Of a DNA stretch of 24,852 bases, positions 3,404 to 18,251 are shown piece by piece. Within the stretch, counting starts at the first letter, position 1; each line of letters opens with the position of its first letter. The position numbers and the translations under genes are program-made. Source of the stretch: a virus; the IMG/VR virus record IMGVR_UViG_3300031857_001291, positions 1 through 24,852 of that record; one strand, 5' to 3'. A model generated the notes under the pieces. It worked only from the letters and a program-made list of their open reading frames with translations, was not told the DNA's origin and searched no databases.

Positions 3404-4549
3404 ATGGCTGATTTTTCATTAACTACCCTCTTTGTAGTTCCAGTAGGGCAAACATCATTCCCTAGCTCTGGTTCTACACAAGACCTCACAGCTGGCCAAG
3501 TTGGTATTTTCTCCAACAATTATGCAGCTACTCTCACTCCTGGTTCTTTCCCTTATTTCTACATTGCTCAAGGTAGAACAAACACTTATTTGCAAGGCTC
3601 TAAGCGTTCAGACAAAATTGCTGGATGTGCTCAAGGAGGTTCTTGTAAATCAAATGTCACTGAGTGGTACAAAGTGAAAGGATGTGCTACAGCAACTAAT
3701 CAAATCACTGACATTACAGATTTTAATGTAAAATGTGGTGATGTTGTAACATTGACTATTCGTGCACACTCTTCTTACATTGACACTCTGTATTTCAATG
3801 GTTTGACACGTTCTGTAACTGTTCAAGCTCCTTGTTGCGATTGTGGTGGTGATCCTTGTGAAACTGTTGATGTTGATGCTCTGATTGACCAATTCATCAC
3901 TAAATTAGAAGCTACAGCTCCTGATTTCTTAGGTGGTGACACTACTGGTACAAATCCTGACAACATCACTTTAAGCACATTCTTCACTTTCACTAATGTT
4001 GGTGGTACTATTCTTCGTATTGAAGGTAAGCCTCTGACTAAATATGGTCAACCTTGTGATGTTGCAGCGTTCCCTTATGAATATGACAGACTGTGGTTCC
4101 GCACATTCATCTATTCTGGTCCTGCTACCACTGCTGACTTTATTGTTGCAGACAATTGTAACATTGTAGCTACTTCTACAATCACTCAAACTTCTAACTA
4201 TCCTACAGGTACTTCTGATGAAATCATCCAACTTGAAAAGAACTACTATTCTTACCAAGCTGGTTATTTGAAACATCTGTACAGAATGGTGGGATATAAT
4301 GGTAACTTTGAGAGCTGGGTGAGCGCAGGTGCAACTTATGATACATATTATATCAGGTTCAATGCCTACGATAAATCTGGTTATCAATGGGGTGATTATA
4401 TCGAGCAAGATGCAATGGTTATCATCGCTGTTCCTGAAGGAACTGCTTCAACAAATCTTTACAATGCATTGGAAGATGCTCTTGGAGAGATTGAGTTTGA
4501 TAACACTTGTATCACTACAACCACTTCTACTACTACAGGAGTAGCGTAA
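3404..4549 (+). CDS. Abundant virion structural protein with Cys cluster and poly-Thr tail
   Basis: A 381-residue protein probably present in many copies in the virion, perhaps an auxiliary or decoration capsid protein. Evidence for abundance: like the capsid gene, it uses CGT arginine and CTG leucine codons far more than other neighbours, and it is followed by the strongest terminator in the window. It is beta-rich, with a Cys-dense hinge at residues 144-152 (CCDCGGDPC) separating an N-terminal part (1-140) from a C-terminal part (about 185-365). More cysteines at 75, 81, 94 and 111 could bind metal or form disulfides. The last residues are a poly-Thr stretch (TTTTSTTTGVA), the same kind of tail found on the small fibre-cluster proteins. 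Start: ATG after TAAACAAA. Exact role unknown. Confidence 0.7.
   Translation: MADFSLTTLFVVPVGQTSFPSSGSTQDLTAGQVGIFSNNYAATLTPGSFPYFYIAQGRTNTYLQGSKRSDKIAGCAQGGSCKSNVTEWYKVKGCATATNQITDITDFNVKCGDVVTLTIRAHSSYIDTLYFNGLTRSVTVQAPCCDCGGDPCETVDVDALIDQFITKLEATAPDFLGGDTTGTNPDNITLSTFFTFTNVGGTILRIEGKPLTKYGQPCDVAAFPYEYDRLWFRTFIYSGPATTADFIVADNCNIVATSTITQTSNYPTGTSDEIIQLEKNYYSYQAGYLKHLYRMVGYNGNFESWVSAGATYDTYYIRFNAYDKSGYQWGDYIEQDAMVIIAVPEGTASTNLYNALEDALGEIEFDNTCITTTTSTTTGVA
4514..4537 (+). repeat. Poly-threonine repeat, C-terminus of the 381-residue protein
   Basis: Eight codons, all Thr except one Ser, made of ACN triplets. The tract sits just before the stop codon, so nothing folded follows it. The same ACN-rich pattern recurs in four downstream genes. 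Confidence 0.85.
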
Positions 4550-4578
4550 TAGATAGAAGAAATACAATCATATAAACC

Positions 4579-4632
4579 TGTGCCAGAGGGTCAGAGAGGA
4601 TAAATCTCAAAGTCCTCTGGCACATTTATTTA
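4579..4632 (+). terminator. Strong rho-independent-like terminator
   Basis: TGTGCCAGAGG (4579-4589) pairs perfectly, 11 of 11 bases, with CCTCTGGCACA (4614-4624). The loop holds a small inner hairpin, GAGA (4594-4597) with TCTC (4605-4608). The stem is followed by TTTATTTA (4625-4632). It ends the unit that includes the abundant structural protein, 30 bases after its stop codon. Confidence 0.85.
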
Positions 4633-4639
4633 GAATAAC

Positions 4640-5203
4640 ATGGCAGAATTAAGACTAGATATAGCAGTAATTCCTACGTACAATTCTCAAACGTTGGGGA
4701 TTGCTGACACATCAACATATCCCTCTCCTTCATCTATCTCTGCTCCTTCAATTGAGTTTAATGTTCCTTCTTTTGGAAAGGTGGTGCTTCCATTCAATCC
4801 AAATAGCTTCAACTTGTTTAATTCAACATCATTAGGAATTACAAGTGTTGGAGACACATTGCTTCCTCTTCCTGATGGAGTGTATTATATTAAATACACA
4901 ATATCTCCTGCATACAAGAACTTTGTTGAGAAAACAATCATGCGTGTTGATGCTCTTCAGGAGAAGTTTGACAATGCATTTATGAAGCTAGATATGATGG
5001 AATGTGATAGGGCAATTAAAACACAACAGAAGGTGCAATTAAACAGCATATATTTCTTTATACAAGGAGCAATAGCTGCTGCAAACAATTGTGCTGTTGA
5101 TGAGGCTAACAAACTTTACAAGCAAGCTAACAAAATGCTTGATAACTTTGTTAGAAATGGATGTCAGTGTTCTGGCACAAACTATGTAACCAACTTTTAC
5201 TAA
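4640..5203 (+). CDS. Conserved tail-associated structural protein (putative)
   Basis: A 187-residue protein with two halves. Residues 1-95 are beta-rich and Ser/Pro/Asn-rich, including a turn-like LPDGVYYIKYTISPA segment (about residues 76-90) typical of small beta-sandwich domains. Residues 95-180 form a helical region, with a long amphipathic helix (VDALQEKFDNAFMKLDMMEC) and repeated Lys/Ala text, ending in a Cys-x-Cys pair (174 and 176). No signal peptide or true membrane segment. It opens the fibre cluster immediately after the terminator and is followed after one base by the zinc-ribbon gene. A tail or fibre-attachment role is inferred from context. The start ATG follows TAGAATAAC. Confidence 0.6.
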   Translation: MAELRLDIAVIPTYNSQTLGIADTSTYPSPSSISAPSIEFNVPSFGKVVLPFNPNSFNLFNSTSLGITSVGDTLLPLPDGVYYIKYTISPAYKNFVEKTIMRVDALQEKFDNAFMKLDMMECDRAIKTQQKVQLNSIYFFIQGAIAAANNCAVDEANKLYKQANKMLDNFVRNGCQCSGTNYVTNFY

Positions 5204-5204
5204 T

Positions 5205-5357
5205 ATGGCTAAGTGTACCAAATGTGGAGCTAATTTTGGCTGTGGATGTCAATTAATTAATGGACTGTGTGCAGCCTGTCATGCTGCTGCTCAAAAAGGA
5301 ACAAAAAGATTTAGAAATGCTATCACCAAGGCTTATCAACTGTGTAGACTGTTCTGA
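5205..5357 (+). CDS. Small zinc-ribbon-like protein (50 residues)
   Basis: A short gene that size cut-offs would miss. ATG at 5205 is one base after the previous stop codon, and TGA ends at 5357. The 50-residue product begins MAKCTKCGANFGCGCQ and has two Cys-x-x-Cys knuckles, Cys4/Cys7 and Cys22/Cys25 followed by His26, plus Cys13 and Cys15. That spacing is the signature of a treble-clef or zinc-ribbon fold. The C-terminal half (30-48) is basic (Lys/Arg), which would allow nucleic-acid or protein contact. Its place among tail genes suggests a small virion or assembly factor, but the function is unknown. Its 3' end overlaps the next gene in another frame. Confidence 0.75.
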   Translation: MAKCTKCGANFGCGCQLINGLCAACHAAAQKGTKRFRNAITKAYQLCRLF

Positions 5358-5586
5358 CATTTGTGTTGTAATCTCAGAAATAGATTGCAAAATAGCACAA
5401 ATGGCAAAAGATCTGTATAACAACACTATTTATTCTCTCAACAGGAATATAGATGGGAATGCTATAAACGATCTTTTAAACTACAAAAGAATCCTACAAT
5501 ACAGAATCTGTAACATAGAGTATGGTGGTAGAAACTTCTCAGATGAACAAATCATCAGTAGAATCAAATTATTAATACGTAAATAA
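5317..5586 (+). CDS. Small helical protein of unknown function
   Basis: No known domain recognised. Using the ATG at 5317, the product is 89 residues, mostly helical, with four cysteines near the N-terminus (CVDCSDIC pattern and one more in SEIDC) and a C-terminal segment (LNYKRILQYRICNIEYG) rich in Arg and Tyr. The same frame is open back to an ATG at 5260, but starting there would overlap the zinc-ribbon gene by 98 bases and give an N-terminus (residues 1-19) unlike the rest, so I prefer 5317 (41-base overlap, preceded by an A-rich stretch). The gene ends 9 bases before the collar-fibre gene. Possibly a fibre chaperone or a small virion protein; this is a guess. Confidence 0.6.
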   Translation: MLSPRLINCVDCSDICVVISEIDCKIAQMAKDLYNNTIYSLNRNIDGNAINDLLNYKRILQYRICNIEYGGRNFSDEQIISRIKLLIRK

Positions 5587-5595
5587 AATACAAAA

Positions 5596-6702
5596 ATGAG
5601 TTGCTCAAATTGCTATAATGGATGTCCTCAGATAGTTTCTGACCAATGTGTTAAATATACAGGAATAGATGTACCAGTTCTTGGTATAAAGAATGGAGAT
5701 AGTCTTTCCTATGTAGAACAAGCCATCATCACTTTTTTAACATCTACATTAGATGGAACAGGAGTGAAGCCTAAGGTGGAACCATCTATAATCTGTGACA
5801 TAGTAAAGAAATATCTTCCTACATGCGGTGATCTTAGTGTTGTAGATTTTATAAAAGCTCTTATTCAAGCAGTTTGTGAATTAAAACCACTTGTTGATGG
5901 AACAATTGCAGATATTGATGACATAAATGATTTTATAGCTTCTTTAGAAGCTGCTTATGATGTAGATTGTTTAACAGGTGTAACTTCCACTTCTGGAACA
6001 CATTTAATATTACAAGCTGTAATTGATAGACTTTGTGCATTTATTATAGATGTAGATGCTACATATGTTAAACTTGATGATCTTGACGATTTGATTGCTG
6101 CATATCTTGGAGGTCAACCAGGCTCATCCAAGTATTATACAAAAATGGTTCCTTATGTGGCTGTTCCATTTTTCCCTACAGTTGGAATATTGTCTAATTT
6201 TAGTGGAAGTGGTGTAGGTAGTGGGGATTGGGAAAAGATATATTTTTGTAATGGTTTAAATGGCACTCCTGATTTAAGAGGAAGGGTTCCTGTTGGTGTA
6301 ACAACAGGTATGGGAGGATCAGCTCTTTCTCCAATAGTTGCTCCTGGAGGACTGAATCCTGACTATCAGTTGAATACAATAACTGGTGCTAATGGTGTAT
6401 TTCTGTCAGAACCTCAGCTTCCTTCGCACACACATACAGCAACAGCTACATCCACTTCTACAGGAACTATTTCTCCAGATCCTCACAGTCACAGTTTTAC
6501 ATATACAGGTAGAGGTGCAACTACTGGTTCTAGTAGTATAGGATCTAGTGCAGGTAGTAGTACAAAAACTACAAGCAGTCAAAGTCTTAGTGTTTCTATA
6601 ACAACATCCACCACTGTAAATAATGCAAACACAGGTGGAAATGAAGCACATTCAAATGTTCAACCTGGTGTAGGTTGCTATTACATCATGTACATCCCAT
6701 AA
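5596..6702 (+). CDS. Tail fibre / receptor-binding protein with phage collar domain
   Basis: A 368-residue host-recognition protein. Residues 1-48 form a Cys-containing N-terminal module (SCxxC...Y-T-G...G-I-x-x-G-D-S-L) shared with two small downstream genes and likely to dock on the tail. Residues 60-175 are helical and Asp-rich, perhaps a stalk. Residues 185-368 carry the phage tail collar pattern: TPDLRGRVPVG (224-234), LPSHTH (275-280), a second His-x-His (297-299) and the typical end NVQPGVGCYYIMYIP. In T4-type fibres such His-x-His motifs bind iron in the needle tip; that link is from family knowledge. A Ser/Thr-rich insert (281-345) lies between the collar motifs and is probably a variable loop. 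Receptor binding is well supported by family; the receptor is unknown. Confidence 0.85.
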   Translation: MSCSNCYNGCPQIVSDQCVKYTGIDVPVLGIKNGDSLSYVEQAIITFLTSTLDGTGVKPKVEPSIICDIVKKYLPTCGDLSVVDFIKALIQAVCELKPLVDGTIADIDDINDFIASLEAAYDVDCLTGVTSTSGTHLILQAVIDRLCAFIIDVDATYVKLDDLDDLIAAYLGGQPGSSKYYTKMVPYVAVPFFPTVGILSNFSGSGVGSGDWEKIYFCNGLNGTPDLRGRVPVGVTTGMGGSALSPIVAPGGLNPDYQLNTITGANGVFLSEPQLPSHTHTATATSTSTGTISPDPHSHSFTYTGRGATTGSSSIGSSAGSSTKTTSSQSLSVSITTSTTVNNANTGGNEAHSNVQPGVGCYYIMYIP

Positions 6703-6720
6703 CATTTTAAATTAATATAA

Positions 6721-7017
6721 ATGTCTTGTTATCCTAATAATTCCTGCAATAGAAATGTCCTAAAAAGCTGTAGTAACACAGATGTTGTTGTCTACACAGG
6801 AGAAAATCTCACATGTACAGGAATAGAATATGGTGATAGTTTAACAGTGGTTCTTCAGAAGCTAGATGAGAAGTATTGTGAAATATTAGATATTATAGAA
6901 AACTGTAATACCACCACTACATCTACCACCACTGTTAATGTACCCCCTGTACACCCAGTTCAAGTGTGTAAAAGTCCTTTTGCAAAAATTTTAGAAAACA
7001 ATCCTCCTGAACAATAA
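6721..7017 (+). CDS. Small docking-module protein with poly-Thr linker
   Basis: A 98-residue Cys-rich protein. Residues 1-60 match, by eye, the N-terminal module of the collar fibre and of the gene at 7646: MSCYPN start, Y-T-G-x-x-L-x-C-x-G-I, then G-D-S-L followed by an amphipathic helix (VVLQKLDEKYCEILDIIE). A poly-Thr stretch (64-71) follows, then a short Pro-rich end (VNVPPVHPVQVC). It looks like a virion attachment module whose former C-terminal cargo domain has been lost or exchanged at the Thr linker. Preceded by an AT-rich leader without Shine-Dalgarno motif. Function inferred from the shared module only. Confidence 0.65.
   Translation: MSCYPNNSCNRNVLKSCSNTDVVVYTGENLTCTGIEYGDSLTVVLQKLDEKYCEILDIIENCNTTTTSTTTVNVPPVHPVQVCKSPFAKILENNPPEQ
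6910..6933 (+). repeat. Poly-threonine repeat in the 98-residue protein
   Basis: Eight codons encoding TTTTSTTT, made mainly of ACC and ACT. It separates the docking module from a short Pro-rich end. Confidence 0.85.
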
Positions 7018-7031
7018 TTAAATTTTATATA

Positions 7032-7628
7032 ATGACATTTAATGCTATTGAAAATATTTTAGATAAAGGGGAAGTTTCTCCAAAATGCGATTGTTGTCCT
7101 TGTTCAAACATATATGTGTTTGGAAGTGTAGAAACAGCTTTGAAACTTATAGAAGCAGCAGGTTGGTTAGGATATCAAGACGATTGTACAACACGCACTT
7201 ACACTACAAGTTGTTGTACAGAAAACTGTTTAGACAAACTTGAAGAGCTTTACGGTGCTGCTGTAACAGATAGAATTTTAGATAAAGGTATGTATGAATA
7301 CTCCTTATTAGGAGCAAGATCAACACTCTGTGATATATACGATTATTTAAAAGATAACAATGTTCCATTATTGGATGCTATTGATTTTATTGATACAATG
7401 CTAGACAAAGGTATTGTTTTTCAATGTTATGGAGATAATCAATTTATAGGTGAGGTGGATACCTTTCTTGAGTTTGCTGAGCTTTCAGAAAGTCTAGTTT
7501 GTAATGATCCAAATCCTTGTAATTGTCTTCCTCCAGAACAATGTTGTTTATCTATTATTGCATCTGTTGAAACATATGCAAAATACGTTGATGCTGTAAG
7601 TGGTGGTGGGGGAGCTGTTCCTGCTTAA
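7032..7628 (+). CDS. Cys-rich repeat protein with LDKG and SVET motifs
   Basis: A 198-residue protein built from internal repeats that I can see directly. An LDKG motif occurs three times (residues 10-13, 83-86, 124-127), each beginning a short Cys/Tyr-containing strand. A second unit, Ser/Glu-Val-Glu/Asp-Thr followed by an amphipathic helix, also occurs three times (32-35, 141-144, 178-181). Eighteen or so cysteines, many in CC or CxC pairs (for example CDCCPC at 19-24), suggest metal binding or disulfides. It ends with a Gly stretch. It sits between two paralogous docking-module genes, so a fibre-associated structural role is plausible. No known enzyme motif was seen. The start ATG follows TTTTATATA. 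Confidence 0.65.
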   Translation: MTFNAIENILDKGEVSPKCDCCPCSNIYVFGSVETALKLIEAAGWLGYQDDCTTRTYTTSCCTENCLDKLEELYGAAVTDRILDKGMYEYSLLGARSTLCDIYDYLKDNNVPLLDAIDFIDTMLDKGIVFQCYGDNQFIGEVDTFLEFAELSESLVCNDPNPCNCLPPEQCCLSIIASVETYAKYVDAVSGGGGAVPA

Positions 7629-7645
7629 AATTAAAATACTATTAA

Positions 7646-7870
7646 ATGTCTTGTTATCCAAATAAAATAGTTCGTGTAACATACCCAAAGAGTTGTTGTC
7701 CAGAAGTGGATGATTCTCAACAACTTACATATTCTGGACCAGCATTGCAATGTATTGAGGTGCAAACAAATCAAACTCTCAACGATGCTATTAAGGAAAT
7801 AGACACTCTTATATGTAACACATTAAACAGTCTTACCACCACCACAACTTCTTCAACAACAGTTATATAA
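7646..7870 (+). CDS. Second small docking-module protein, poly-Thr at C-terminus
   Basis: A 74-residue paralogue of the protein at 6721: same MSCYPN start, a Y-S-G-x-x-L-x-C-x-x-V centre, then an Asp/Ile-rich helix (LNDAIKEIDTLICNTLNSL) and a terminal run TTTTTTSSTTVI directly before the stop. Nothing folded follows the Thr run, so as in its sister gene the distal domain seems absent. The next gene begins 10 bases later and itself contains a Thr linker, so module fission or exchange at this repeat is likely. The role is probably tail docking or as a stump for exchangeable domains; this is inferred. Confidence 0.65.
   Translation: MSCYPNKIVRVTYPKSCCPEVDDSQQLTYSGPALQCIEVQTNQTLNDAIKEIDTLICNTLNSLTTTTTSSTTVI
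7835..7861 (+). repeat. Poly-threonine repeat at the end of the 74-residue protein
   Basis: Nine codons encoding Thr and Ser only (seven Thr, two Ser), followed by Val-Ile-stop. ACC-rich at first, ACA-rich at the end. Confidence 0.85.
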
Positions 7871-7880
7871 ATTTAAAACC

Positions 7881-8393
7881 ATGACAGTATTAATTCAACT
7901 TACAACAGCAGGTCTTGATACAGGACCATTCAACCTATTCTCAAATCTTGACTCCTTTGGAACACCATTTGAAGTGGGAGTGACAAAGGTAGATCTTTTA
8001 TCAGGATATTTAAGCTCACTTGTTCCTTATGGAACAACAACAATAAGGGTGTGTTCCACATCTTTATATTGTGCAAATTGTGTAGATATCACTATTGAAC
8101 CTCTACCTACAACTACCACTACCAGTACTACATCTGGAAGTTTCTATATGTATAGTCTTGTTTTTGATCCATGTTCTTCTGCTACACCAACATTCACTGC
8201 ATATTCAAGTTCATCAGCATTAGGAGTAGGAGTTTCTCTATGGCAAGATTCAGCTCTAACTATTCCTTACACATGTTCTGCTGGTGGACCAGGAAACTTT
8301 TGTTTTGTGGGATTTGCTAGTATTCCTCTAGGCGGTTATTGGCGTATACCAGATGGAACAAATGTGATTGATAATTCTGGAAGTTGTGTTTAA
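7881..8393 (+). CDS. Two-domain Thr-linked protein, candidate host-recognition module
   Basis: A 170-residue protein with three parts. Residues 1-75 form a small beta-rich domain with an A/T-G-P-F-x-x-x-x-N pattern near residue 14 and a D-L-x-x-G-Y segment; a similar domain begins the gene at 18262. Residues 77-85 are a poly-Thr/Ser linker. Residues 86-170 form a second compact Cys-containing beta domain (LGVGVSLWQDSALTIPY, then a Gly-Tyr-Trp-Arg stretch and DGTNVIDNSG) that resembles the exchangeable Thr-linked domains common in crAss-like and other aquatic Bacteroidota phage proteins. A carbohydrate or receptor-binding task is plausible but not shown. It is the last gene before the second terminator. 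Confidence 0.6.
   Translation: MTVLIQLTTAGLDTGPFNLFSNLDSFGTPFEVGVTKVDLLSGYLSSLVPYGTTTIRVCSTSLYCANCVDITIEPLPTTTTTSTTSGSFYMYSLVFDPCSSATPTFTAYSSSSALGVGVSLWQDSALTIPYTCSAGGPGNFCFVGFASIPLGGYWRIPDGTNVIDNSGSCV
8109..8135 (+). repeat. Poly-threonine linker in the 170-residue protein
   Basis: Nine codons encoding TTTTTSTTS. It links the two beta domains, the clearest case here of Thr acting as a linker between folded modules in a small protein. Confidence 0.85.
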
Positions 8394-8405
8394 TATATTA
8401 AAACT

Positions 8406-8429
8406 TCCTGTTTTGTTGGTTTTACAGGA
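8406..8429 (+). other. Short inverted repeat before the terminator
   Basis: TCCTGT (8406-8411) pairs with ACAGGA (8424-8429) around a 12-base loop. It may form an extra hairpin in the 3' untranslated end just before the terminator. Confidence 0.4.
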
Positions 8430-8437
8430 TATGTTCT

Positions 8438-8467
8438 CCCCTGGTGTATCCACACTGGGGGTTTTTT
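8438..8467 (+). terminator. Rho-independent terminator of the fibre cluster
   Basis: CCCC (8438-8441) pairs with GGGG (8457-8460) and GTGT (8444-8447) with ACAC (8452-8455), across a small internal loop, with loop ATCC. Six T residues follow (8462-8467). This is the classical form and ends the unit starting at 4640. Confidence 0.85.
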
Positions 8468-8472
8468 AATTA

Positions 8473-8488
8473 AATTGGTTATTCCAAT
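8473..8488 (+). repeat. Inverted repeat ATTGG/CCAAT in the intergenic region
   Basis: ATTGG (8474-8478) and CCAAT (8484-8488) are separated by TTATT. The first arm lies in a 10-mer, AATTGGTTAT (8473-8482), that recurs exactly at 24766-24775 in the last intergenic region. Possible operator or promoter-associated element. Confidence 0.4.
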
Positions 8489-8503
8489 AATTAATTCAGT
8501 TAA

Positions 8504-8540
8504 AATAATTTGGTAATTATTAAATAAGTGCCTACCTTTA
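8504..8540 (+). promoter_or_regulatory. Candidate Bacteroidota-type promoter with overlapping palindrome
   Basis: TTTG at 8509-8512 and TACCTTTA at 8533-8540 are 20 bases apart, matching the -33/-7 TTTG and TAnnTTTG pattern of Bacteroidota with one mismatch. Predicted initiation near 8546 gives a leader of about 20 bases before the ATG at 8567. A perfect 7-bp inverted repeat, AATAATT (8504-8510) and AATTATT (8515-8521), covers the -33 box and could be an operator. It lies between a terminator and the next gene, where a promoter is expected. Confidence 0.5.
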
Positions 8541-8566
8541 CTCTAATTTTTAACTAAAATTGCTTT

Positions 8567-9802
8567 ATGCAGGATCAGAATTCCTTGTTATATCAGCTGG
8601 AACAAATGCTCCACTGGAAGAAAAGTAGAAACTTCTACGCTAAAAAACTAAACATTACAGAAGAGGAGATTGATGAGTTGATGAGGGAATTGAGAAAGAA
8701 AGACACTGTAAGAAATGATGCTGAAACAGCTGTCTATATTGGTGCTCTTGAGGAACGAGTGATAGAAGTGAACAATGAAAAGGGTACATTAAAAAGCACA
8801 ATAGAATCAAGCTTTGAACCAAAATCAGATTTAGAACTAGCCCAATTACATAAAATAGACCTATCTAAATACAAGATATCAAACTATTGGTCTAAACAAA
8901 AATCTAATGGTAAATTTACTTCTTCTATATTTGCCACGCTTAGGAAACCAAATGATTACACTGCTGAAGACTTTGCTAAGTTTTTGGAGAACTATGTTCC
9001 TAAGGAGGTAAATGTTAGATATATTGACTATGATGAATTTGAATATGATGATGTAGATATTGAGGTGTCTATTTCTGACTTCCATTTGGCAAAGAAAACC
9101 TTAGAAGGAGAAACTATAGAAGATAAGAAAGAACAATACATGAGTGTTCTTACAGACCTTGTAGAAAAGGTGAGAAACTCTTATGATATAAACAAGATAG
9201 TTTTCCCCATCTCTAATGATTTCTTCCATACAGACAACTACCAGAACACTACAACAAATGGTACTCCTCAAGATGTATTAGTGGGATATGATAATGAGTA
9301 TGAGGAGGGTTTTGATCTACTGGTCCAAGCTATAACCTATTTGCAGGAAGTTGCTGGAACTGTGGAAGTTATACTGGTTCAAGGGAACCATGATCGCACT
9401 AAGTCATTCTACCTAGCTCATGCTCTTGATATCTTCTTCAGGGATAATGAAAAGGTGTTTTTTGAAAGAGATCATTCCACCGTAAAATCTACAATACTTG
9501 GTAACACCTTTATAGGATATCATCATGGGAATTGTAAGATAGATGAACTACCTCTGTTGTTTGCTACAGGAGATAGTGCTGCAGGTTTTGGACTAGCTAC
9601 ATACAGAGAAATCCATACAGGTGACAAACACCATTATATGGCAAAAGAAATAAAAGGTGTTAGAATCCAACAGATGCCCTCTCTTTCAGGAACAGATAGA
9701 TGGCATGCTGATAACAACTATGTAAACAATATTAGAGCTGGACTCGTTCTAATCTATGATCCTCTTAAAGGAAAGATTGGAGAGTTTGAATCAAGAATAT
9801 AA
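8567..9802 (+). CDS. Calcineurin-like metallophosphoesterase with HTH-like N-terminus
   Basis: A 411-residue two-metal phosphoesterase. Family motifs are readable in order: Asp171-x-His173 (SDFHLA), Asn217-Asp218 where the usual form is Gly-Asp, Gly-Asn274-His275-Asp (GNHDR), His319-His320 (GYHHGN), and Asp353-x-His355-His356 (TGDKHH), replacing the usual Gly-His-x-His. All metal-ligand classes appear present, so activity is likely; the substrate could be DNA ends, nucleotides or phosphoproteins. Residues 15-45 (SRNFYAKKLNITEEEIDELMREL) look like a helix-turn-helix, followed by a long charged helix. Such an enzyme in a tail block is puzzling; it may be a virion enzyme or a DNA-processing factor sharing the late promoter. 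Start: first ATG after the candidate promoter. Confidence 0.8.
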   Translation: MQDQNSLLYQLEQMLHWKKSRNFYAKKLNITEEEIDELMRELRKKDTVRNDAETAVYIGALEERVIEVNNEKGTLKSTIESSFEPKSDLELAQLHKIDLSKYKISNYWSKQKSNGKFTSSIFATLRKPNDYTAEDFAKFLENYVPKEVNVRYIDYDEFEYDDVDIEVSISDFHLAKKTLEGETIEDKKEQYMSVLTDLVEKVRNSYDINKIVFPISNDFFHTDNYQNTTTNGTPQDVLVGYDNEYEEGFDLLVQAITYLQEVAGTVEVILVQGNHDRTKSFYLAHALDIFFRDNEKVFFERDHSTVKSTILGNTFIGYHHGNCKIDELPLLFATGDSAAGFGLATYREIHTGDKHHYMAKEIKGVRIQQMPSLSGTDRWHADNNYVNNIRAGLVLIYDPLKGKIGEFESRI

Positions 9803-9805
9803 GTT

Positions 9806-10531
9806 ATGTCAACATTAAGAAAATTGGTTTCAGATGTTCGTGGAATGCACAAATTAATTTCCACTGATTCTCTTATTACAGATAGAGTGATTGCTTCTGA
9901 AATCAGAAACAATGCTCTTTTGTTAATTAAAAGAGAAACCAATCTTAGAAAGCTTTGGTCTACATCAACAATTTTTACCACCATTCCTTGTTTGGAGATG
10001 GTGGAAGTTCCTATTTCTGAATGTTGCGATTATGCTGATCCTTGCAGTGTATCTAGAAGTAAATTCAAGCTTCCTCGTATTTCAGAAGGAAACTATCAAT
10101 ATGTCATCCAAGGTGTTTATTCTATAAATGCTATGGGTGGTACAGGAAAGAAACTAAAAGAAATCACAATCAACAGATACACCAACTTGTTAAAACTTCC
10201 TATAATAAAAAAAGAAGATTATTATTGGATAATTAATGACTATTTGTACATCAGCAATCCTCTTATTCAAAAAATAAGAATATCTGCTTTATTTGAGGAT
10301 GAGGTGCCTAATGAGATAATGTATCCAGATTGTGATTGTAATAACATTGTATCTACAGAAGACCTTTGTAAAAATCCCTTGGACAAGCAATTCTCTCTCC
10401 CAGGATATTTAGAAAAACAAGTGTTAGAACTCACTTCTCAAAAACTCTTAGGAACATATTTCCAATTGAAAACAGATATGACAGATGATGGAATGGATGG
10501 TCAAGCACCAAACGCCCCAGCTGGAAGATGA
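9806..10531 (+). CDS. Putative neck/ring (head-tail connector) protein
   Basis: A 241-residue protein starting 3 bases after the phosphoesterase stop. It begins with a helical region (residues 1-55, many Arg/Leu, including LISTDSLITDRVIASEIRNNA), followed by a beta-rich part with a Cys pair (CC at 73-74) and a Pro-Asp-Cys-Asp-Cys patch near residue 175. The tail is Gln/Ala/Pro-rich. In crAss-like phages the genes before the IHF-like and tubular-protein genes encode connector ring proteins of this size, and the length and position fit. I see no catalytic motif. Its stop overlaps the next start (ATGA), so the two are translationally coupled. Role inferred from gene order. Confidence 0.65.
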   Translation: MSTLRKLVSDVRGMHKLISTDSLITDRVIASEIRNNALLLIKRETNLRKLWSTSTIFTTIPCLEMVEVPISECCDYADPCSVSRSKFKLPRISEGNYQYVIQGVYSINAMGGTGKKLKEITINRYTNLLKLPIIKKEDYYWIINDYLYISNPLIQKIRISALFEDEVPNEIMYPDCDCNNIVSTEDLCKNPLDKQFSLPGYLEKQVLELTSQKLLGTYFQLKTDMTDDGMDGQAPNAPAGR

Positions 10532-11004
10532 GAAGGAAAATAGATTGGAGAAGTTCAAGCAAAGAAAACTACAATGATTTTTGCAGTAAGTATCCCTCAG
10601 TTAAACTAACGTTTGATGAGTGGAGAAATATTATTTATGTATTTATGGAATCTTTCAAGGAGTATATTCTTGAAACTGGTGAAAGAGCAAAGCTTCCTTA
10701 TGGATTTGGTGAGTTTTCAATAAATAAGAAAAAGAGAAGAAAAATTAAAGGAACAGATGGAAAAGAATTCATCAATCTTCCAATAGACTGGCAAAAGACC
10801 AAAGAGAAAGGAAAAAGGATATATAATTTCAACTACCACACAGAGGGTTATTTCTTTGGATGGATTTGGTTCAAGGGAACAGCTAGATTTAGAAATGTTG
10901 ATCTTTGGTATTTCAAACCATCAAGAACCACATCTAGACTTCTATCACACTACTTAAAGATATCTGATAAATATCAGCACATTTACAACACCTGGAAAAC
11001 TTAA
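10528..11004 (+). CDS. IHF/HU-like protein of the tail module
   Basis: A 158-residue basic protein. Residues 29-50 form an amphipathic helix (EWRNIIYVFMESFKEYILETG), followed by GERAKLPYGFGEFSINKKKRR (51-71), which closely matches the HU/IHF pattern Gly-x-x-V-x-L-x-G-F-G-x-F-x-V-(R/K)-x-R. After that come more basic beta strands and an aromatic-rich C-terminal extension (Phe, Trp and Tyr, residues 90-140) not found in ordinary HU. IHF-like genes in this position are typical of crAss-like structural blocks. It may bind DNA in the packaged genome or have been recruited as a connector part. Start by ATGA overlap with the ring gene. Confidence 0.75.
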   Translation: MRRKIDWRSSSKENYNDFCSKYPSVKLTFDEWRNIIYVFMESFKEYILETGERAKLPYGFGEFSINKKKRRKIKGTDGKEFINLPIDWQKTKEKGKRIYNFNYHTEGYFFGWIWFKGTARFRNVDLWYFKPSRTTSRLLSHYLKISDKYQHIYNTWKT

Positions 11005-11007
11005 AAA

Positions 11008-11928
11008 ATGTCCTACTACTATAAATACAATTTTACATCTCCTGAGATTGTCTATTCCACTGTAAAAGAAGAGCTTAAGAGCTATTTTGATACAGGGGCT
11101 GTAGATGATTTGCTGTTTCCCACCTACCTTGATAAATGCTTAAGGAAATTGGGCAGAGCTACATATGTCATTTCTGAACAGCTTCTTCAAATAGAAGACT
11201 TCCAAGCAAGACTCCCAGATAACTTTTTTGCTGTTAGGGAGGCTTGGTTGTGTACAGAAATAGATGGTTTTCCATACAAAACAGCTAATTCTTTCTATTC
11301 CCAGGCATCTTCTGAAACAACAATACAAGTGAGTCCTGTGATTTCTAATCAGGTGTCTTGTAATAGCAATTGTCCTCCAGACAACTGTACATGTATGCCT
11401 GAGCTTATACAGTCTGTATATAAGACAAACAATGAGGTGAATTTAACATATACAAAGAAATACCTTCTGAAACCAGGAAATATTTCTGTTAGAGCAGATT
11501 GCACATTAGATTGTGCAAATTTTGGCAGTTCTTCAGCAGACTCTTTTGATATTAGAGATAACAAACTTGTCACCAATTTTAGATGTGGAACAGTTTATTT
11601 GGTGTTCTACGCTACAGAGTATGATAATAGTGGTAATCAAATGATTCCTGATAACTATCGTATCAGGGAATATATAGAAGCATTTATTAAATATAAGGTG
11701 TTTGAAACTCTTACAAATCAGACAAACGATGAAACATTCAATCAGCTTCAGCAAAAACTTGCATATTACAAACAGCTTTCTGAAGAAGCCTTTATAATGG
11801 CTGATATTGAGATTAAGAAACAAGATGCTTATGCTAAGCAAAGAAGAATAAAGAATGATTTAAATAGGTTCAACAGATTTGAACTTCCTAATGTAACATA
11901 TAGATACGGTTGGAGACGTAATACATAA
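11008..11928 (+). CDS. Tail tubular / ring protein (P22 gp4-like type)
   Basis: A 306-residue protein starting 3 bases after the IHF-like gene. Residues 1-75 form an N-terminal helical bundle with DLLFPTYLDKCLRKLGRATY, the kind of helix seen in adaptor proteins. The centre (80-205) is beta-rich and contains a Cys-rich loop (NCPPDNCTC, near residue 123). Residues 210-280 form a long helical arm (Gln/Lys-rich, IPDNYRIREYIEAFIKYKVF, then repeats of Gln and Lys), and the end is basic (RYGWRRNT). Length and helix-beta-helix layout fit the P22 gp4-like tail tubular proteins of crAss-like phages, which stack under the portal to form the tail channel. Identification is from remembered family features and position. 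Confidence 0.7.
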   Translation: MSYYYKYNFTSPEIVYSTVKEELKSYFDTGAVDDLLFPTYLDKCLRKLGRATYVISEQLLQIEDFQARLPDNFFAVREAWLCTEIDGFPYKTANSFYSQASSETTIQVSPVISNQVSCNSNCPPDNCTCMPELIQSVYKTNNEVNLTYTKKYLLKPGNISVRADCTLDCANFGSSSADSFDIRDNKLVTNFRCGTVYLVFYATEYDNSGNQMIPDNYRIREYIEAFIKYKVFETLTNQTNDETFNQLQQKLAYYKQLSEEAFIMADIEIKKQDAYAKQRRIKNDLNRFNRFELPNVTYRYGWRRNT

Positions 11929-11945
11929 CAAATTATTTCTGTTAT
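11925..11945 (+). promoter_or_regulatory. Inverted repeat before the muzzle gene
   Basis: ATAACA (11925-11930) and TGTTAT (11940-11945) pair over six bases with a nine-base loop, overlapping the previous stop codon and ending 4 bases before the muzzle start. It might fold over the start region and affect translation. Weak in an AT-rich context. Confidence 0.3.
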
Positions 11946-11948
11946 ATA

Positions 11949-14900
11949 ATGGCTGAAGAAACTAAGAAAGACCAAGGAGCTATAAATTTAAACAGTGGTG
12001 TTGCACAGACAGGGCTGAACATGGACCAATCTGTAAATCAGATTGGACAGGGATCTCTTACATATGCATTAAACGCTGCTGTTGAGAACTTTGATGCTAA
12101 TTCTGTTAATTACCAGAATGAGCCAGGGAACGAGTTTTGTGTGCAATTTCCTTCGGGGTTTTCTCTTATTGGTCATCATTTAATAGCTGAACAAAACAAA
12201 CATATATTCTTTCTTGTGAACTCTGATACAGGAGATTCTCACATAGGGTATATGGATAATAATGATTGTATTTACAAAATCTATGTAGATGCAAAGTGTT
12301 TAAATTTCAATATTAAAAATCCTATTCACAAGATAGTGCATAAGATTACAAATTGCACTACAGAAATATATTGGACAGATGGTGTTAATCCAAGAAGATA
12401 TTTAAATCTTAACGACATTCCTTACACTTTTGCTGCAGCATCCACTTTTTGCGATCCTAGTTTTACAAATGAAGTGGACTGTAATCAACTAAAACTACAG
12501 CCTAATTTTAAAATACCTCTTCTATCTATAGTTGATGTTCAAGAGGGTGGAGACCTTACAGCAGGAACATACCAATTTGCTATTCAATATTCTGATGCTA
12601 CAGGCAATCCTTTCACTTCCTACTATTCAATCACCAATCCCACTCCTATTGCTGATCCTTTCCTCACCACTCCTAATTTTGATTATAAGGTGGGGAAATC
12701 CATTGTTGTAGAAATTAAAAATCTTGATGAAACTGGACAATACCAATATTTTAATTTAGCCGTAATAAAAACTGTCAATGATATTCCTTCCGTGGAACTA
12801 GTTGGAACATATTTTATTGACGAGCTTACAAAAAGAATCACATACACAGGTCAGAATGTTACACAAATAAGACTCACTATAAATGACATATTTGAGAAGT
12901 TTCCTTATTATGAAATAGCTCAGGATTTGACAGTGGTGCAAGATGTTCTTGTTTGGGACAATCTTACATCTATTGACAGGATTAATTATCAAGAGATTGC
13001 TTCAAAAATTCAGCTTCAGTGGCAAACATACAAACTTCCAGCCACTGAAAACTATGCAGATGAACTAAATGCTACAAACCTTAGAGGATATTTAAGAGAT
13101 GAGGTGTATGCGTTTGAGATAGTGTTCCTCCTAAAGAATGGTAAACAAACAGATGGGTTTCATATTCCTGGAAGGGTGAAGAACGCTTTTGAAATTTCTG
13201 TTCCAGATGTTCCTACAACTAACCCAGATTTTATAGGTGAACCAGATGATCCTATTGCAGGAACCAGTGAGTATTGGAAAATATATAACACTGCTGTAGA
13301 TCTTGGTCCAGCTACAGGAGATAAAATAGGAAATGCTGTTCCTCATAGGTATGGAGATTTTGCTTATTGGGAATCTGAAGAAACCTATCCTTGTAATAAA
13401 GATGTATGGGGAGATTTAGCAGGACAAAAGATTAGACATCACAAGTTTCCAGATGTCCTTGTAAGTCCAATATTTGAATCTAAAATATTTGCTCCACCTA
13501 CCAAATTAGTGATGGAGCAAGGATCTGTTTTTCCAATTGGTGTAAAAATAGATGTTGATGATATTCAAGATTTGATACAAAAATCAAATCTCACTGATGA
13601 ACAAAAAGCTGACATAGCTGGATTTAAGATTGTTAGAGGAGACAGAAGTACAAATAAATCCATTATTGGAAAAGGCATACTCAGGAATGTAGGAAGTTAT
13701 ACAAGAGAAGAACAAACGTTCTACTTTCCAAACTATCCTTATAATGAACTCCAACCAGATGTATTTTTAACTTCTAACAATAATGCTTTTGCAAAAGAAG
13801 CCACTCCTTGGTTGGTGATATGCACTCAATCTGGTAAATATGAAATTACAGACATAAACACTGGAAAACTCATTCCAAAACCAATGGTTGCTGGAGAAAC
13901 TTATGAAATTTGTTCTATAACAAGACCAAAACGTCTTTCAGGAGCAGCAAAAATAGGACCAGCAAATTATGAATCTTGGACAGTTGTAGGTGATGGTAAT
14001 AGTCATGCTGATTATTCTTGGGTAGATCCTTTTTCCACTACCAACTCTAATGGAACACCTGGAAATATAAGAGTTTTTAGTAATGTTTTTGGAAATTCAA
14101 GTTTTGGTCCTATAGTTATAGCTGTTGGAGGCAGTATTTCATACACTGGAAGTTGTACTGGTTTAGGTGCTGCTTGTTCTAGAGAAAAAAAGATACAGAA
14201 TCCTAGAGAAGTTCAAGACATTGGAAGTGTAAACTTTACAAAAGGTAGAATAAGTAAATTATCTTGTAATTCAACAACACCATTAACATCAACAGGAACT
14301 AACATAGCATCTGCAAAAAGAATGGTGTTTAATTCTCCAGAAACTTCTTTTGGAAATCCTTTTCTAGGAAATATTCTGAAGCTTGAAAATGTAATGTTTG
14401 GTGGTGGATTAGGGCACTTTGTACAAGTGAAGAATAATGCAAATTATAAGCTTCTAAGCAAAGATGCTCAATTTGATGCGTTAAACAGTTCTCAAAGTGT
14501 TGCTAATATTGGAGGATTTAATGCAGGGTCTATGTTTGCTGCCTATCAGTCCTACCTCACTATATATGTAAATGGTATCACTAGAAAAAACTATGCCTAT
14601 TCCTACAACTCTATAGCTAGTTACGATTATTCAAGTGAAATTGCAAATGGGCTTGGTATTAAACAAAGACCTCTTGATATCGCTCAATATTTAATTCCAG
14701 GTGTGTTGAATGTTGGAGATGATAAAAATATAAACAACTTTCAAAGAGAATCTTCTGTATATTTAAAAACTACAGAAAATCTGATAGATACAACAATTTA
14801 TTACAAAGAATACAGAATCTGTAATAGTAATGTTTCTTCCACTTTACAGAAACCAGAAGACACTTTTGAGTTTTCTTATGTAGATGAAAACTACAAAAAC

Positions 14901-17900
14901 GCAACTAAACCTGTTTCTCCAGGAACTTGTGAAGTGATTAATTCTGTAATAGTTCCTGTAAAAACTTCTGGAATAGGAAATTATACAATAACAGTGATTG
15001 GTTCTGGGTCTAATTTTGTAACTAATGTTCCCACTCCAGCACTTCCCTTTCCAGATCAAACAAATAGTTTAATTGATCCTACAACCAATTTTCCAAGGAT
15101 TACAGAAAAATCAAGAATCACTATTAGTGAGGTGGGGGCTTGTAATGCTCCAGCTAAAGAGCAAGATTTGAAAGTGGTTTCTTATTATGCCTCTTTAAAA
15201 AATCTAAATATAAATCAATGGGGACAACTTTATACATATTCCACTATTGATACAGGTTTTCAAATAAATGTTAACTTTGGCACCACTCAAGGTGGAAGAG
15301 TTGTTTTTGGAGGAGATACATTTATAAGTAGATTCACATTTAAGACAAAACTTCCTTTCTTTATAGATAACAGAGTGGGAGCTCCTGATGACTCTGATAT
15401 ATTTTATGATGAAATAGGTAATGTTGCCTATCCTAAATATTGGCATTCTTCAAGATCTATCACTGAAAATTATGTTTTAACTACAGGGCAAATTTTAACA
15501 AATATAATTTCGTACAAGGCTAATAACTTTGACTGTCCTAACGATCCTGGTTCTATAGCTCCTCCAAGTGGAACAAATGTTGCTGGTACATACAGAACTT
15601 TCTATGATGGATATTTCTATTTGTTTGCATATGGTATTCCTAATTTTTATTGTGAAACTTCTTACAACTTAGATCTTCGTCAAGCATTTAATAATAGAGA
15701 AGGAGATTTCTGGCCTCATGTAAGCACAGGTATTCCTGATGATTGGGTGCAAGAAGATTTTGTTTCTATTGCTAATGATAACACGTACACTTACAATAGA
15801 ACGTTTAGCAAACAAAATAAGGAGAACTTTTTCTCCCATCTTCCTCCAGATTGGGAAGAAAAGTTGTGTTTTACCAACTATCCATTTAGAGCAATATATT
15901 CAGACAGACAAGTTGAGAACGCTGATAACAGAGTGAATAACTGGTTGTATTACAGAGCTGTTTCATTCTTTGACTTCCCTCAGAATTATGGGAAGCTTAC
16001 ATCCTTAGATGGTATACAGAACAGAGCTGTTTTAGCTAGATTTGAGAATAAGTCATTGCTTTACAATACACTTCTCACTGTTGAAACAAGTAATCCACAA
16101 GCTGCTTATTTAGGAAACGATACATTGTTTAGAAGTGCTCCTCCTATTGATTTTGCAGAAACAGATCTTGGATATGTAGGAAGTCAGAACAAGTTTCTTT
16201 TAAAAATTCCTCAAGGACAAATCACCGTTGATGCTAAAAGAGGACAAATATTCCTAGTTTCAGGAAACCAGGCTACAGACTTAACAGCATTTGGATCTGG
16301 TATGAATAGGTTCTTTACAGATCATTTAGCTTTTGAAATCTTAAGATTTTTCCCTGATTTAGAAACTGTGGTGAACAATGAGAGAATTGTTATCCCTGGA
16401 GTGAATATAGACAACCATTTCAATGGAATAGGATTACATGGTGTATATGATAGTAAGTATGACAGGGTGATAATCACTAAGTTGGACTATGTTCCTCTTT
16501 CTAATGATGTTAAATATGACTACACCACCAAGGATTTTTATATAGAAGAGATTATAAACAATACACCTATTAGAACAATCATCTATTTATCTGATAAGGA
16601 GTATTTCTGTAACAAGTCTTGGACTCTATCATTCAACCTAAACACAAAAACTTGGGTGAGCTTCCACAGCTACCTCCCCAACTTCTACATGGGAGAGAAC
16701 AATTTCTTCTATTCAGGAGTGAATGGATGTTGTGATGGATTTGATTTAAGCGGGTTTGGTGTTATTGCTACAAGTAATTTGGCTGAAGTGGTTGACAGAA
16801 CTACTACAACCACCACTACAGAACCTGTTTCATTCCCTTTACCATCCTATGATTGCGATTGTTCTGGAACAGCATATTCTATAGATTGTTCTTTAGATGG
16901 GACAGCTTTTGATGTAACACCTACAACCACCACTACTACCACTTGTGGATTTGGAGATAATCAATACGTATTTATAACTGGATATACAGTGAATTCTACA
17001 GATGTCACATCAACACTTTCTCTTGAAATTGCTTGTAATGCTGCAAATTATTATCAAGGTTCTGTAGGTATCAATTGTTCATTTTCATTTACAGATATAA
17101 CAGTTTTCTCAGATAGCCTATCTGTTGGAGAAATAGTGTACGAATCTCCTTGTATCACTATTCCTGATGGTTGGTATTTTACAAGCAACTATCCAGCAGA
17201 TGGGTTAGTTTATTATGTTGTTGATGGACAAATTGTTGAAATAACACCCTGCATATGCACTGTTACAGAAACCACCACTGTTGTTCCAAATATTCCAGAA
17301 TGTTGTTCAAATATTTACATAATGAACGATAAGGTGATGTATAGAGATATAAATGGTAACTATACATTAAATGTTCCAGGATATGTTTCTTCTACAGGGA
17401 TTGCAATAACATCTAATAAGTTCTTTGCAATTAATACACAAATAAATGAATGGGATGTGACACTAGCTCCATTCTCAGCAACATTTAACAGAAACATTGC
17501 TCTTCCAGGAGGATTTACAACATCTTCAGGAATTGTAGCAATAAATAATACAACATTAGTTGCTGTAAATGATACACCTGCTCCTCAAAAGGTTGTGGAG
17601 CTTGATATAACAGGAGTGACAGCATCTTTAACAAATCAGTTTGATTTACAAACAGATAGAGTGGCAATTGGAAATCCTTTGTATACAACAGGAGGAAAGC
17701 TCATATTAATTAATCAAGACACAGTTTCCAACGATTACTATCTATCTCAATATGACTATTCTACAGGAACTTTAGAAGTGGACTTCAACATGGGATCTTT
17801 TGCAGCAGTGTCTGTTGCATATTGTGATTGTTTAATATACTTAGTAGATGGTCTTGGAAAAGTGGTAATGGTTGTTAGCACATATCCTGGATATGAGCTT

Positions 17901-18251
17901 ATTACAATTATACCACCAACAGGATTAACTTTCTCCCTTTATACACAATTGATGAGTTGTGTTGTAAACTCTCTAACAGAAAATCCATTATTAACAACAA
18001 CAACTAGTACCACTGTGGTTACATATTGCTACACAGTGGATGTTTCTGGAGAAGGAACACTTTTATGGTTAGATGGTTTTGGAGAAACACAATCTCTAGA
18101 AATCACTGACCCACAAACACTTACACTTTGTGCTCAGTTTAATTCAATTTCTAGTGATGAAGATTTAACATTCATTTCATGTTCAGACTATCTACCATGT
18201 ACAACAGAAGGAGATTGTCCTACAACAACAACCACTACCACCTCACCCTAA
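11949..18251 (+). CDS. Giant tail muzzle / tail-stabilisation protein with poly-Thr modules
   Basis: A 2100-residue protein, longer than the roughly 1500 usual for crAss-like muzzle proteins, the P22 gp10-type tail tip. Residues 1-1617 look like the muzzle core: IYWTDGVNPRRYLNL (140-154), DEVYAFEIVFLL with FHIPGR around residues 380-405, and the repeated-blade propeller text ending near KTWVSFHSYLPNFY (about 1568). From 1618 on, the protein becomes a chain of Cys-rich beta modules separated by Thr runs, including a propeller-like module (about 1784-2010). The last module ends with TTTTTTTSP and the stop. Excess length lies in this tail, suggesting recent acquisition of exchangeable receptor-binding domains. 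Start: first ATG, AT-rich leader without Shine-Dalgarno motif. Confident as muzzle-type; the domain details are inference. Confidence 0.7.
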   Translation: MAEETKKDQGAINLNSGVAQTGLNMDQSVNQIGQGSLTYALNAAVENFDANSVNYQNEPGNEFCVQFPSGFSLIGHHLIAEQNKHIFFLVNSDTGDSHIGYMDNNDCIYKIYVDAKCLNFNIKNPIHKIVHKITNCTTEIYWTDGVNPRRYLNLNDIPYTFAAASTFCDPSFTNEVDCNQLKLQPNFKIPLLSIVDVQEGGDLTAGTYQFAIQYSDATGNPFTSYYSITNPTPIADPFLTTPNFDYKVGKSIVVEIKNLDETGQYQYFNLAVIKTVNDIPSVELVGTYFIDELTKRITYTGQNVTQIRLTINDIFEKFPYYEIAQDLTVVQDVLVWDNLTSIDRINYQEIASKIQLQWQTYKLPATENYADELNATNLRGYLRDEVYAFEIVFLLKNGKQTDGFHIPGRVKNAFEISVPDVPTTNPDFIGEPDDPIAGTSEYWKIYNTAVDLGPATGDKIGNAVPHRYGDFAYWESEETYPCNKDVWGDLAGQKIRHHKFPDVLVSPIFESKIFAPPTKLVMEQGSVFPIGVKIDVDDIQDLIQKSNLTDEQKADIAGFKIVRGDRSTNKSIIGKGILRNVGSYTREEQTFYFPNYPYNELQPDVFLTSNNNAFAKEATPWLVICTQSGKYEITDINTGKLIPKPMVAGETYEICSITRPKRLSGAAKIGPANYESWTVVGDGNSHADYSWVDPFSTTNSNGTPGNIRVFSNVFGNSSFGPIVIAVGGSISYTGSCTGLGAACSREKKIQNPREVQDIGSVNFTKGRISKLSCNSTTPLTSTGTNIASAKRMVFNSPETSFGNPFLGNILKLENVMFGGGLGHFVQVKNNANYKLLSKDAQFDALNSSQSVANIGGFNAGSMFAAYQSYLTIYVNGITRKNYAYSYNSIASYDYSSEIANGLGIKQRPLDIAQYLIPGVLNVGDDKNINNFQRESSVYLKTTENLIDTTIYYKEYRICNSNVSSTLQKPEDTFEFSYVDENYKNATKPVSPGTCEVINSVIVPVKTSGIGNYTITVIGSGSNFVTNVPTPALPFPDQTNSLIDPTTNFPRITEKSRITISEVGACNAPAKEQDLKVVSYYASLKNLNINQWGQLYTYSTIDTGFQINVNFGTTQGGRVVFGGDTFISRFTFKTKLPFFIDNRVGAPDDSDIFYDEIGNVAYPKYWHSSRSITENYVLTTGQILTNIISYKANNFDCPNDPGSIAPPSGTNVAGTYRTFYDGYFYLFAYGIPNFYCETSYNLDLRQAFNNREGDFWPHVSTGIPDDWVQEDFVSIANDNTYTYNRTFSKQNKENFFSHLPPDWEEKLCFTNYPFRAIYSDRQVENADNRVNNWLYYRAVSFFDFPQNYGKLTSLDGIQNRAVLARFENKSLLYNTLLTVETSNPQAAYLGNDTLFRSAPPIDFAETDLGYVGSQNKFLLKIPQGQITVDAKRGQIFLVSGNQATDLTAFGSGMNRFFTDHLAFEILRFFPDLETVVNNERIVIPGVNIDNHFNGIGLHGVYDSKYDRVIITKLDYVPLSNDVKYDYTTKDFYIEEIINNTPIRTIIYLSDKEYFCNKSWTLSFNLNTKTWVSFHSYLPNFYMGENNFFYSGVNGCCDGFDLSGFGVIATSNLAEVVDRTTTTTTTEPVSFPLPSYDCDCSGTAYSIDCSLDGTAFDVTPTTTTTTTCGFGDNQYVFITGYTVNSTDVTSTLSLEIACNAANYYQGSVGINCSFSFTDITVFSDSLSVGEIVYESPCITIPDGWYFTSNYPADGLVYYVVDGQIVEITPCICTVTETTTVVPNIPECCSNIYIMNDKVMYRDINGNYTLNVPGYVSSTGIAITSNKFFAINTQINEWDVTLAPFSATFNRNIALPGGFTTSSGIVAINNTTLVAVNDTPAPQKVVELDITGVTASLTNQFDLQTDRVAIGNPLYTTGGKLILINQDTVSNDYYLSQYDYSTGTLEVDFNMGSFAAVSVAYCDCLIYLVDGLGKVVMVVSTYPGYELITIIPPTGLTFSLYTQLMSCVVNSLTENPLLTTTTSTTVVTYCYTVDVSGEGTLLWLDGFGETQSLEITDPQTLTLCAQFNSISSDEDLTFISCSDYLPCTTEGDCPTTTTTTTSP
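16800..18242 (+). repeat. Five poly-threonine linkers in the muzzle tail
   Basis: Thr runs at 16800-16820 (7 Thr), 16923-16943 (7 Thr), about 17263-17283 (short, TETTTVV), 17994-18014 (TTTTSTT) and 18222-18242 (7 Thr) divide the last 480 residues into five blocks. The runs are ACN-codon repeats like those in the small genes, and the last sits at the C-terminus, two codons before the stop. The spacing of 120 to about 730 bases is the size of single beta domains or a propeller. Confidence 0.85.

Follow-up and report, generated by a model that had tools for sequence, protein, structure and literature searches.

In T-even phages, the small adhesin gp38 owes its fold to glycine-rich motifs, which alternate with hypervariable segments. 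Recombination between these glycine motifs has reportedly been proposed, by Tetart in 1998 and Trojet in 2011, to swap specificity. The structure of the S16 gp38 adhesin has been described (PMC6851490). In side tail fibers with collagen-like repeats, an N-terminal attachment region, a repetitive linker, and a C-terminal domain are variously combined, a mix ascribed to prophage recombination (PMC3368898). Recombination at poly-Ser/Thr tracts has been floated for bacterial polysaccharide-binding proteins (PMC6821194). For PhicrAss001, the sections of the virion description drawn on here report fibers that attach via short N-terminal segments (gp21 residues 1 to 38, gp22 1 to 26, and gp29 1 to 58) and a muzzle of five domains that acts as a DNA/protein gatekeeper, and their account of the muzzle mentions no linkers (PMC10172136). 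Our literature search found no paper describing, in crAss-like phages, Thr/Ser runs of the kind reported below.

The stretch of DNA analyzed here (the window) is the complete IMG/VR record IMGVR_UViG_3300031857_001291, 24,852 bases long, which is itself only a genome fragment. On sequence grounds it is assigned to the genome of a crAss-like phage (Crassvirales). A profile search of the window identified a crAss muzzle (PF25731 crAss_MUZ, 125.9 bits against a cut-off of 27), and the genes between capsid and muzzle include matches to structural proteins. The closest annotated muzzle relatives are those of Lbo-JY46 (34%), csAssE-Sib (29%), and Cellulophaga phi17:2 (29%). The first of these, Leptolyngbya phage Lbo-JY46 (PP438436.1), was recorded from a cyanobacterium; it encodes RecA yet has no (ACN)6 run. 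A more distant muzzle relative (28%) lies on a metagenome-assembled contig labeled uncultured Neisseriaceae and is probably a mis-binned phage. Between the variable fiber genes and the ring-type genes, the window also carries a DNA-repair-exonuclease-like gene (phrog_704, positions 8567 to 9802).

Thr/Ser runs, anchors, and tips

The proteins of the window contain eight Thr/Ser runs seven or more residues long (Table 1), against a mean of 0.03 and a maximum of 1 in 500 residue shuffles per protein. An earlier reading of this DNA, the original prediction, had placed runs of seven to nine residues at the C terminus of the 381-residue protein, in three of four small proteins, and five times in the muzzle, with nearly identical DNA throughout. 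It is confirmed in part. The run closing the 381-residue protein and those in the three small proteins are where they were said to be, the fourth small protein (198 aa, 7032 to 7628) having none. Repeated runs are present in the muzzle too, but there are four rather than five, the would-be fifth being a degenerate VTETTTVV within the 350-aa segment. Near identity of the run DNA was not found: pairs of window runs share a longest exact word of only 6 to 14 nt, and their best identity over 18 nt is 67 to 89%. On the + strand, (ACN)6 occurs solely at three muzzle runs and never in dinucleotide shuffles.

Table 1. Features of the window that bear on the run-linked genes
Feature	Coordinates	Strand	Basis or remark
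crAss-type major capsid protein	17..1513	+	PF23898 Crass_capsid, 96.4 bits, cut-off 27; phrog_11589
381-aa virion-region protein, anchor family c4, run at end, tip never present	3404..4549	+	79/79 c4 genes
Run TTTTSTTT, C terminus of 381-aa protein	4514..4537	+	
368-aa collar-type tail-fiber protein	5596..6702	+	phrog_8763, phrog_8469 tail fiber
Fiber anchor, family c1	6721..6909	+	family c1: 131 genes, 71 architectures
Run TTTTSTTT, then merely a 27-aa stub	6910..6933	+	
Fiber anchor, family c1	7646..7834	+	c1 family membership, alignment
Run TTTTTSSTT, bare gene end	7835..7861	+	
Fiber anchor, family c0, predicted small beta domain	7881..8108	+	family c0: 155 genes, 76 architectures
Run TTTTTSTTS	8109..8135	+	
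85-aa tip, common to L004	8136..8390	+	family c37 in earlier, smaller module set
Muzzle core, anchor family c2	11949..16799	+	PF25731, 125.9 bits
Run TTTTTTT, muzzle	16800..16820	+	
34-aa linker module, muzzle	16821..16922	+	
Run TTTTTTT, muzzle	16923..16943	+	
350-aa module, family c8, muzzle	16944..17993	+	
Run TTTTSTT, muzzle	17994..18014	+	
69-aa Cys-containing tip, family c19	18015..18221	+	same superfamily as c3, c11
Run TTTTTTTS, muzzle end	18222..18245	+	
Separate ORF, c0-like N terminus plus C-terminal domain of muzzle family	18262..19134	+	hhalign to c0 profile 95%

Relatives were collected in three scans of viral contigs carrying muzzle cores. Once repeats had been removed, 147 loci were left, 144 of them with runs; the relatives compared are metagenomic contigs throughout. 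Cutting the proteins at the runs gave 1,316 modules of at least 25 residues in 241 families (family numbers are those of the final set; a smaller, earlier set named c6 as c8). Six families are mainly N-terminal and are called anchors here: c0, c1, c2 (the muzzle), c4 (the 381-aa protein), c6, and c17. In the 144 loci, runs stand between these N-terminal anchors and zero to six variable tips. Architectures are numerous, with 66 among 123 muzzle genes and 18 among 31 c6 genes, besides the counts for c0 and c1 in Table 1. Of the 226 architectures with tips, 64 are found in at least two nonredundant loci, as are 105 of the 320 junction types. The c4 anchor has a single architecture, and in all 79 c4 genes of relatives that could be traced to their stop, the stop comes right after the run. 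The 381-aa gene, which had been counted among the sites of module exchange, thus does not behave as one.

Tips are not confined to one kind of gene. Among the tip families with at least five members, 14 of 21 are found behind at least two different anchors, the muzzle among these. Tip family c7 is FISUMP (TIGR02145 / PF09603), above the cut-offs at 100.6 bits against 33.9 and at 74.9 and 89 against 41.65, with a FISUMP tip matching PF09603 at 1.7e-28. A tree of the FISUMP tips has at least 10 changes of slot label, against a possible minimum of 4, and the label is also clustered. Families c3, c11, and c19 form one superfamily of Cys-containing domains of about 65 residues (hhalign c19-c11 97%, c3-c11 94%), and another tip family weakly resembles the Lcl_C domain. 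Going by these family resemblances, the tips would bind host surface glycans or receptors. The anchors would attach to the virion.

Within the window, the N terminus of the 368-aa collar-type protein aligns with the c1 anchors over a common YTG..GI..GDSL motif. Where the first c1 anchor of the window is followed by a run and a stub, the nearest relative (L004) has an additional run plus a 118-aa tip; where the second ends bare, L004 has a 135-aa tip. Five proteins of Virus NIOZ-UU157 match the c0 anchor (AlphaFold mean pLDDT 89), and two of the five are just 77 residues long. The c19 tip of the muzzle is modeled as all-beta (mean pLDDT 90.5), and neither it nor the c0 anchor has a PDB match with E of 0.001 or below. 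Family c8, which supplies the 350-aa muzzle module, occupies muzzle slots 15 times, c1 slots 3 times, and a c6 slot once among the relatives. Directly after the terminal run of the muzzle, the C-terminal domain of the muzzle family stands as an ORF of its own, which matches positions 1589 to 1781 of the 1,783 of phrog_15100.

A second cluster of genes with Thr runs lies elsewhere in long relatives (L217 to L221). Each of its genes opens with a short N-terminal segment (MGSINSRPLKAFVRYDGSGRIV...) and then a run, after which more sequence may or may not come. Family and PDB searches with these segments gave no match; they are possibly capsid-fiber anchors.

Breakpoints and single exchange events

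Changes of homology were located in 49 disjoint closest pairs (muzzle core DNA identity of at least 82%), which contain 126 variable islands; an island edge was counted as lying at a run if it fell within 30 bp of the run in both genomes. The original prediction that homology changes sharply at the Thr runs was borne out. For 58 of the 126 islands, the left edge coincides with a run in both genomes, compared with a mean of 1.4 and a maximum of 7 in 500 circular-shift trials. On the right, 44 of these 58 islands extend to a gene edge and 11 to a second run; 9 of the 11 run-to-run islands are pure module gains or losses, and 10 are in frame. A further 35 islands have no edge at a run or gene edge, and many of these fall within a part of the muzzle core that has no runs. 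The core holds a second variable region without Thr runs at about 13770 to 14400 (aa ~607 to 817), with 15 of the 126 islands.

Constant co-inheritance of the modules flanking a run, the pattern contrary to the prediction, was not seen: orthologous fiber anchors in the closest pairs carry the same tip in 36 of 71 cases and different tips in 35, and the variation seen consists of whole modules, not single residues. Domain swapping among tail parts therefore holds, on the strength of the left edges and of the tip families found behind several anchors. The idea that runs link exchanged modules on both sides fits the left edges but not the right, which are usually gene ends. Many swaps thus require no crossover at a run, and recombination driven by the flanks is at least as likely as crossing over from run to run. 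Taken as a whole, the earlier interpretation is partly supported.

Two comparisons resolve single events. Loci L019 and L021 have aligned flanks about 99% identical. In L021, a c6-type gene stops two residues after TTTTTTT; in L019, a 197-aa FISUMP tip starts from the same point, and homology returns just ahead of the next gene. Gene ends that lack a module, also part of the prediction, thus exist among the fiber genes. In the second comparison, a c1 gene of L055 carries a c11 tip that L069 and L157 have in their c0 gene, with 99% DNA identity across 192 nt, far above the 83.7% identity of the muzzle cores. The close identity extends into the run and ends inside it, the upstream modules are unrelated, and the c0 gene is absent from L055. 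The L055 tip is thus a recent transfer between two fiber gene slots. Crossing over at a run is best supported by this one case.

How modules may be exchanged

We consider it likely that the adhesins of a large clade of environmental crAss-like phages form a modular apparatus spread over several genes, with the Thr/Ser runs as its permissive joints. The anchor of each gene, conserved and N-terminal (c0, c1, c6, or the muzzle core), would stay at its locus, followed by a P-T7-x-x-P run and then zero to several tip modules, and tips would be replaced, added, deleted, and transferred between anchors. A new junction would arise in frame, inside or beside a run, with the other end placed at a further run, at the 3' end of the gene, or in the gene after it. 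Ordinary recombination between coinfecting relatives, probably aided by phage RecA, could then spread the new combinations. The anchor/tip architecture, the edges at runs, the in-frame run-to-run indels, the tips in several slots, and the one recent interslot transfer are observed directly. RecA is encoded in all 11 long relatives and presumably performs the recombination; no recognizable RecT or ERF was found in them.

Near identity of the joint DNA, which the original prediction had offered as a possible driver of recombination, was rejected in that role. Among the relatives, the longest word shared by runs from different genes averages 9.9 nt, against 9.8 nt after synonymous shuffling, and only 0.3% of sampled different-gene run pairs of one genome share at least 20 nt. 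For run pairs of the same gene, a shared word of at least 15 nt is found in 7.9%, compared with 2.3% of shuffles. The protein sequence is more regular: the run consensus is P-T7-x-x-P, and the lengths after the Pro are six residues in 8 cases, seven in 373, eight in 168, and nine in 37. This sharp peak at seven to eight points to selection on a protein linker. Together with the invariably bare run of the 381-aa protein, it also means that the run must have some role besides exchange. We infer that the run serves mainly protein-level tolerance rather than DNA homology.

Other accounts of the runs were rejected. Growth as a pure microsatellite does not fit run lengths that peak sharply without a taper, and avoidance of slippage does not fit adjacent identical codons at their expected frequency (z -0.3). 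A special right-hand motif ahead of the next gene was dismissed because A-rich sequence precedes all genes alike (8.5 versus 7.8 bits over 14 positions). In codon usage, ACC accounts for 16% of the Thr codons within runs and 7% elsewhere in the relatives.

The strongest alternative, which we judge evenly balanced between right and wrong, is that 3' gene ends are swapped as cassettes by homologous recombination on either side, within the conserved anchor and within the conserved next gene; homology would then end at the run because the run is a domain linker and not itself the crossover site. The islands spanning run to gene edge (44 of 126), run DNA no more alike than the amino acids demand, and RecA in all long relatives tested are what such exchange would give. 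It does not readily produce 11 run-to-run islands, nearly all in frame. Nor does it explain the interslot fusion of L055 and L069, whose upstream modules differ, so that the anchor supplied no homology there. Anchor divergence relative to the core also speaks against it, being not significantly greater beside swapped than beside unswapped tips (-2.7 versus -1.6 points, p=0.36). Import of a whole anchor along with its tip was likewise rejected, there being no significant extra anchor divergence.

That the runs are purely structural spacers, with tips diverging by mutation and selection and no exchange, is improbable. The length peak and the always bare run of the 381-aa gene would suit spacers, but swapped tips are frequently of different families, one tip family stands behind several anchors, and nearly identical genomes differ by the presence or absence of a whole tip. 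As a sole explanation it is refuted by the L019/L021 and L055/L069 comparisons, unless these reflect assembly errors. Such errors are conceivable, since the relatives are all metagenomic contigs and assemblers might fuse unrelated modules at low-complexity runs. As the source of the pattern, we regard them as very improbable: the rarity of different-gene run pairs sharing 20 nt, a length below usual assembly word sizes, and the recurrence of architectures and junction types across nonredundant loci make assembly joins an unlikely explanation, and the frame is kept in 10 of 11 run-to-run indels. Least probable of all is a dedicated diversifier (a diversity-generating retroelement, invertase, or shufflon) that moves the modules, for although several variable receptor-type genes share one genome, reverse transcriptase (RVT_1, PF00078) and serine and tyrosine recombinases (PF00239, PF00589) are absent from the 11 long relatives, as the prediction of variation without a reverse transcriptase had it, and the run matches of each long genome lie nearly all on one strand, which makes inversion unlikely.

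We therefore favor rare in-frame joining at runs combined with spread by ordinary flank recombination. A bolder version, offered tentatively and with somewhat more doubt than belief, is that P-T7-x-x-P is a standard connector, possibly in use in the second gene cluster too. Protein-level selection would hold the run at an exact minimal length, leaving every tip able to join every anchor in frame. By general recombination only, a lytic clade would thereby maintain a combinatorial set of adhesins across at least four slots, including the genome-gating muzzle.

Comparison with known systems

The findings suggest how an abundant uncultured phage type could keep varying its host-contact surface without a dedicated mutator. 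They also provide P-T7-x-x-P as a concrete sequence mark for anchor/tip boundaries in otherwise unannotated tail genes. The muzzle, a gatekeeper in PhicrAss001, takes part in the same module exchange as the fibers. As far as the cited sections of the PhicrAss001 description go (PMC10172136), the window has muzzle, ring, and capsid genes in common with that virion, but its muzzle differs from the one described there in that it is extended at the C terminus by about 480 run-linked residues.

The FISUMP / Fib_succ_major domain (PF09603, TIGR02145), of which tip family c7 is a clear member, occurs in these phages as an exchangeable C-terminal tip behind Thr runs in fiber and muzzle proteins alike. 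As with diversity-generating retroelements and fiber invertases, the outcome is a variable recognition surface; unlike in those systems, searches of the long relatives detected neither a reverse transcriptase nor a site-specific recombinase, and whole modules change. The collagen-repeat side tail fibers form a triple helix, whereas the repeat here is poly-Thr and one joint is common to several genes, including the tail nozzle. Another parallel is with the T-even gp38 adhesins, whose receptor-binding tip likewise consists of conserved low-complexity motifs interspersed with variable segments. Unlike the motifs of gp38, the P-T7-x-x-P runs of the crAss-like phages connect entire domains, and do so in several genes, the muzzle gene among them; whole modules also change genes. 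The Thr-run system works like the glycine-motif adhesins of T-even phages while not being a member of that protein family.
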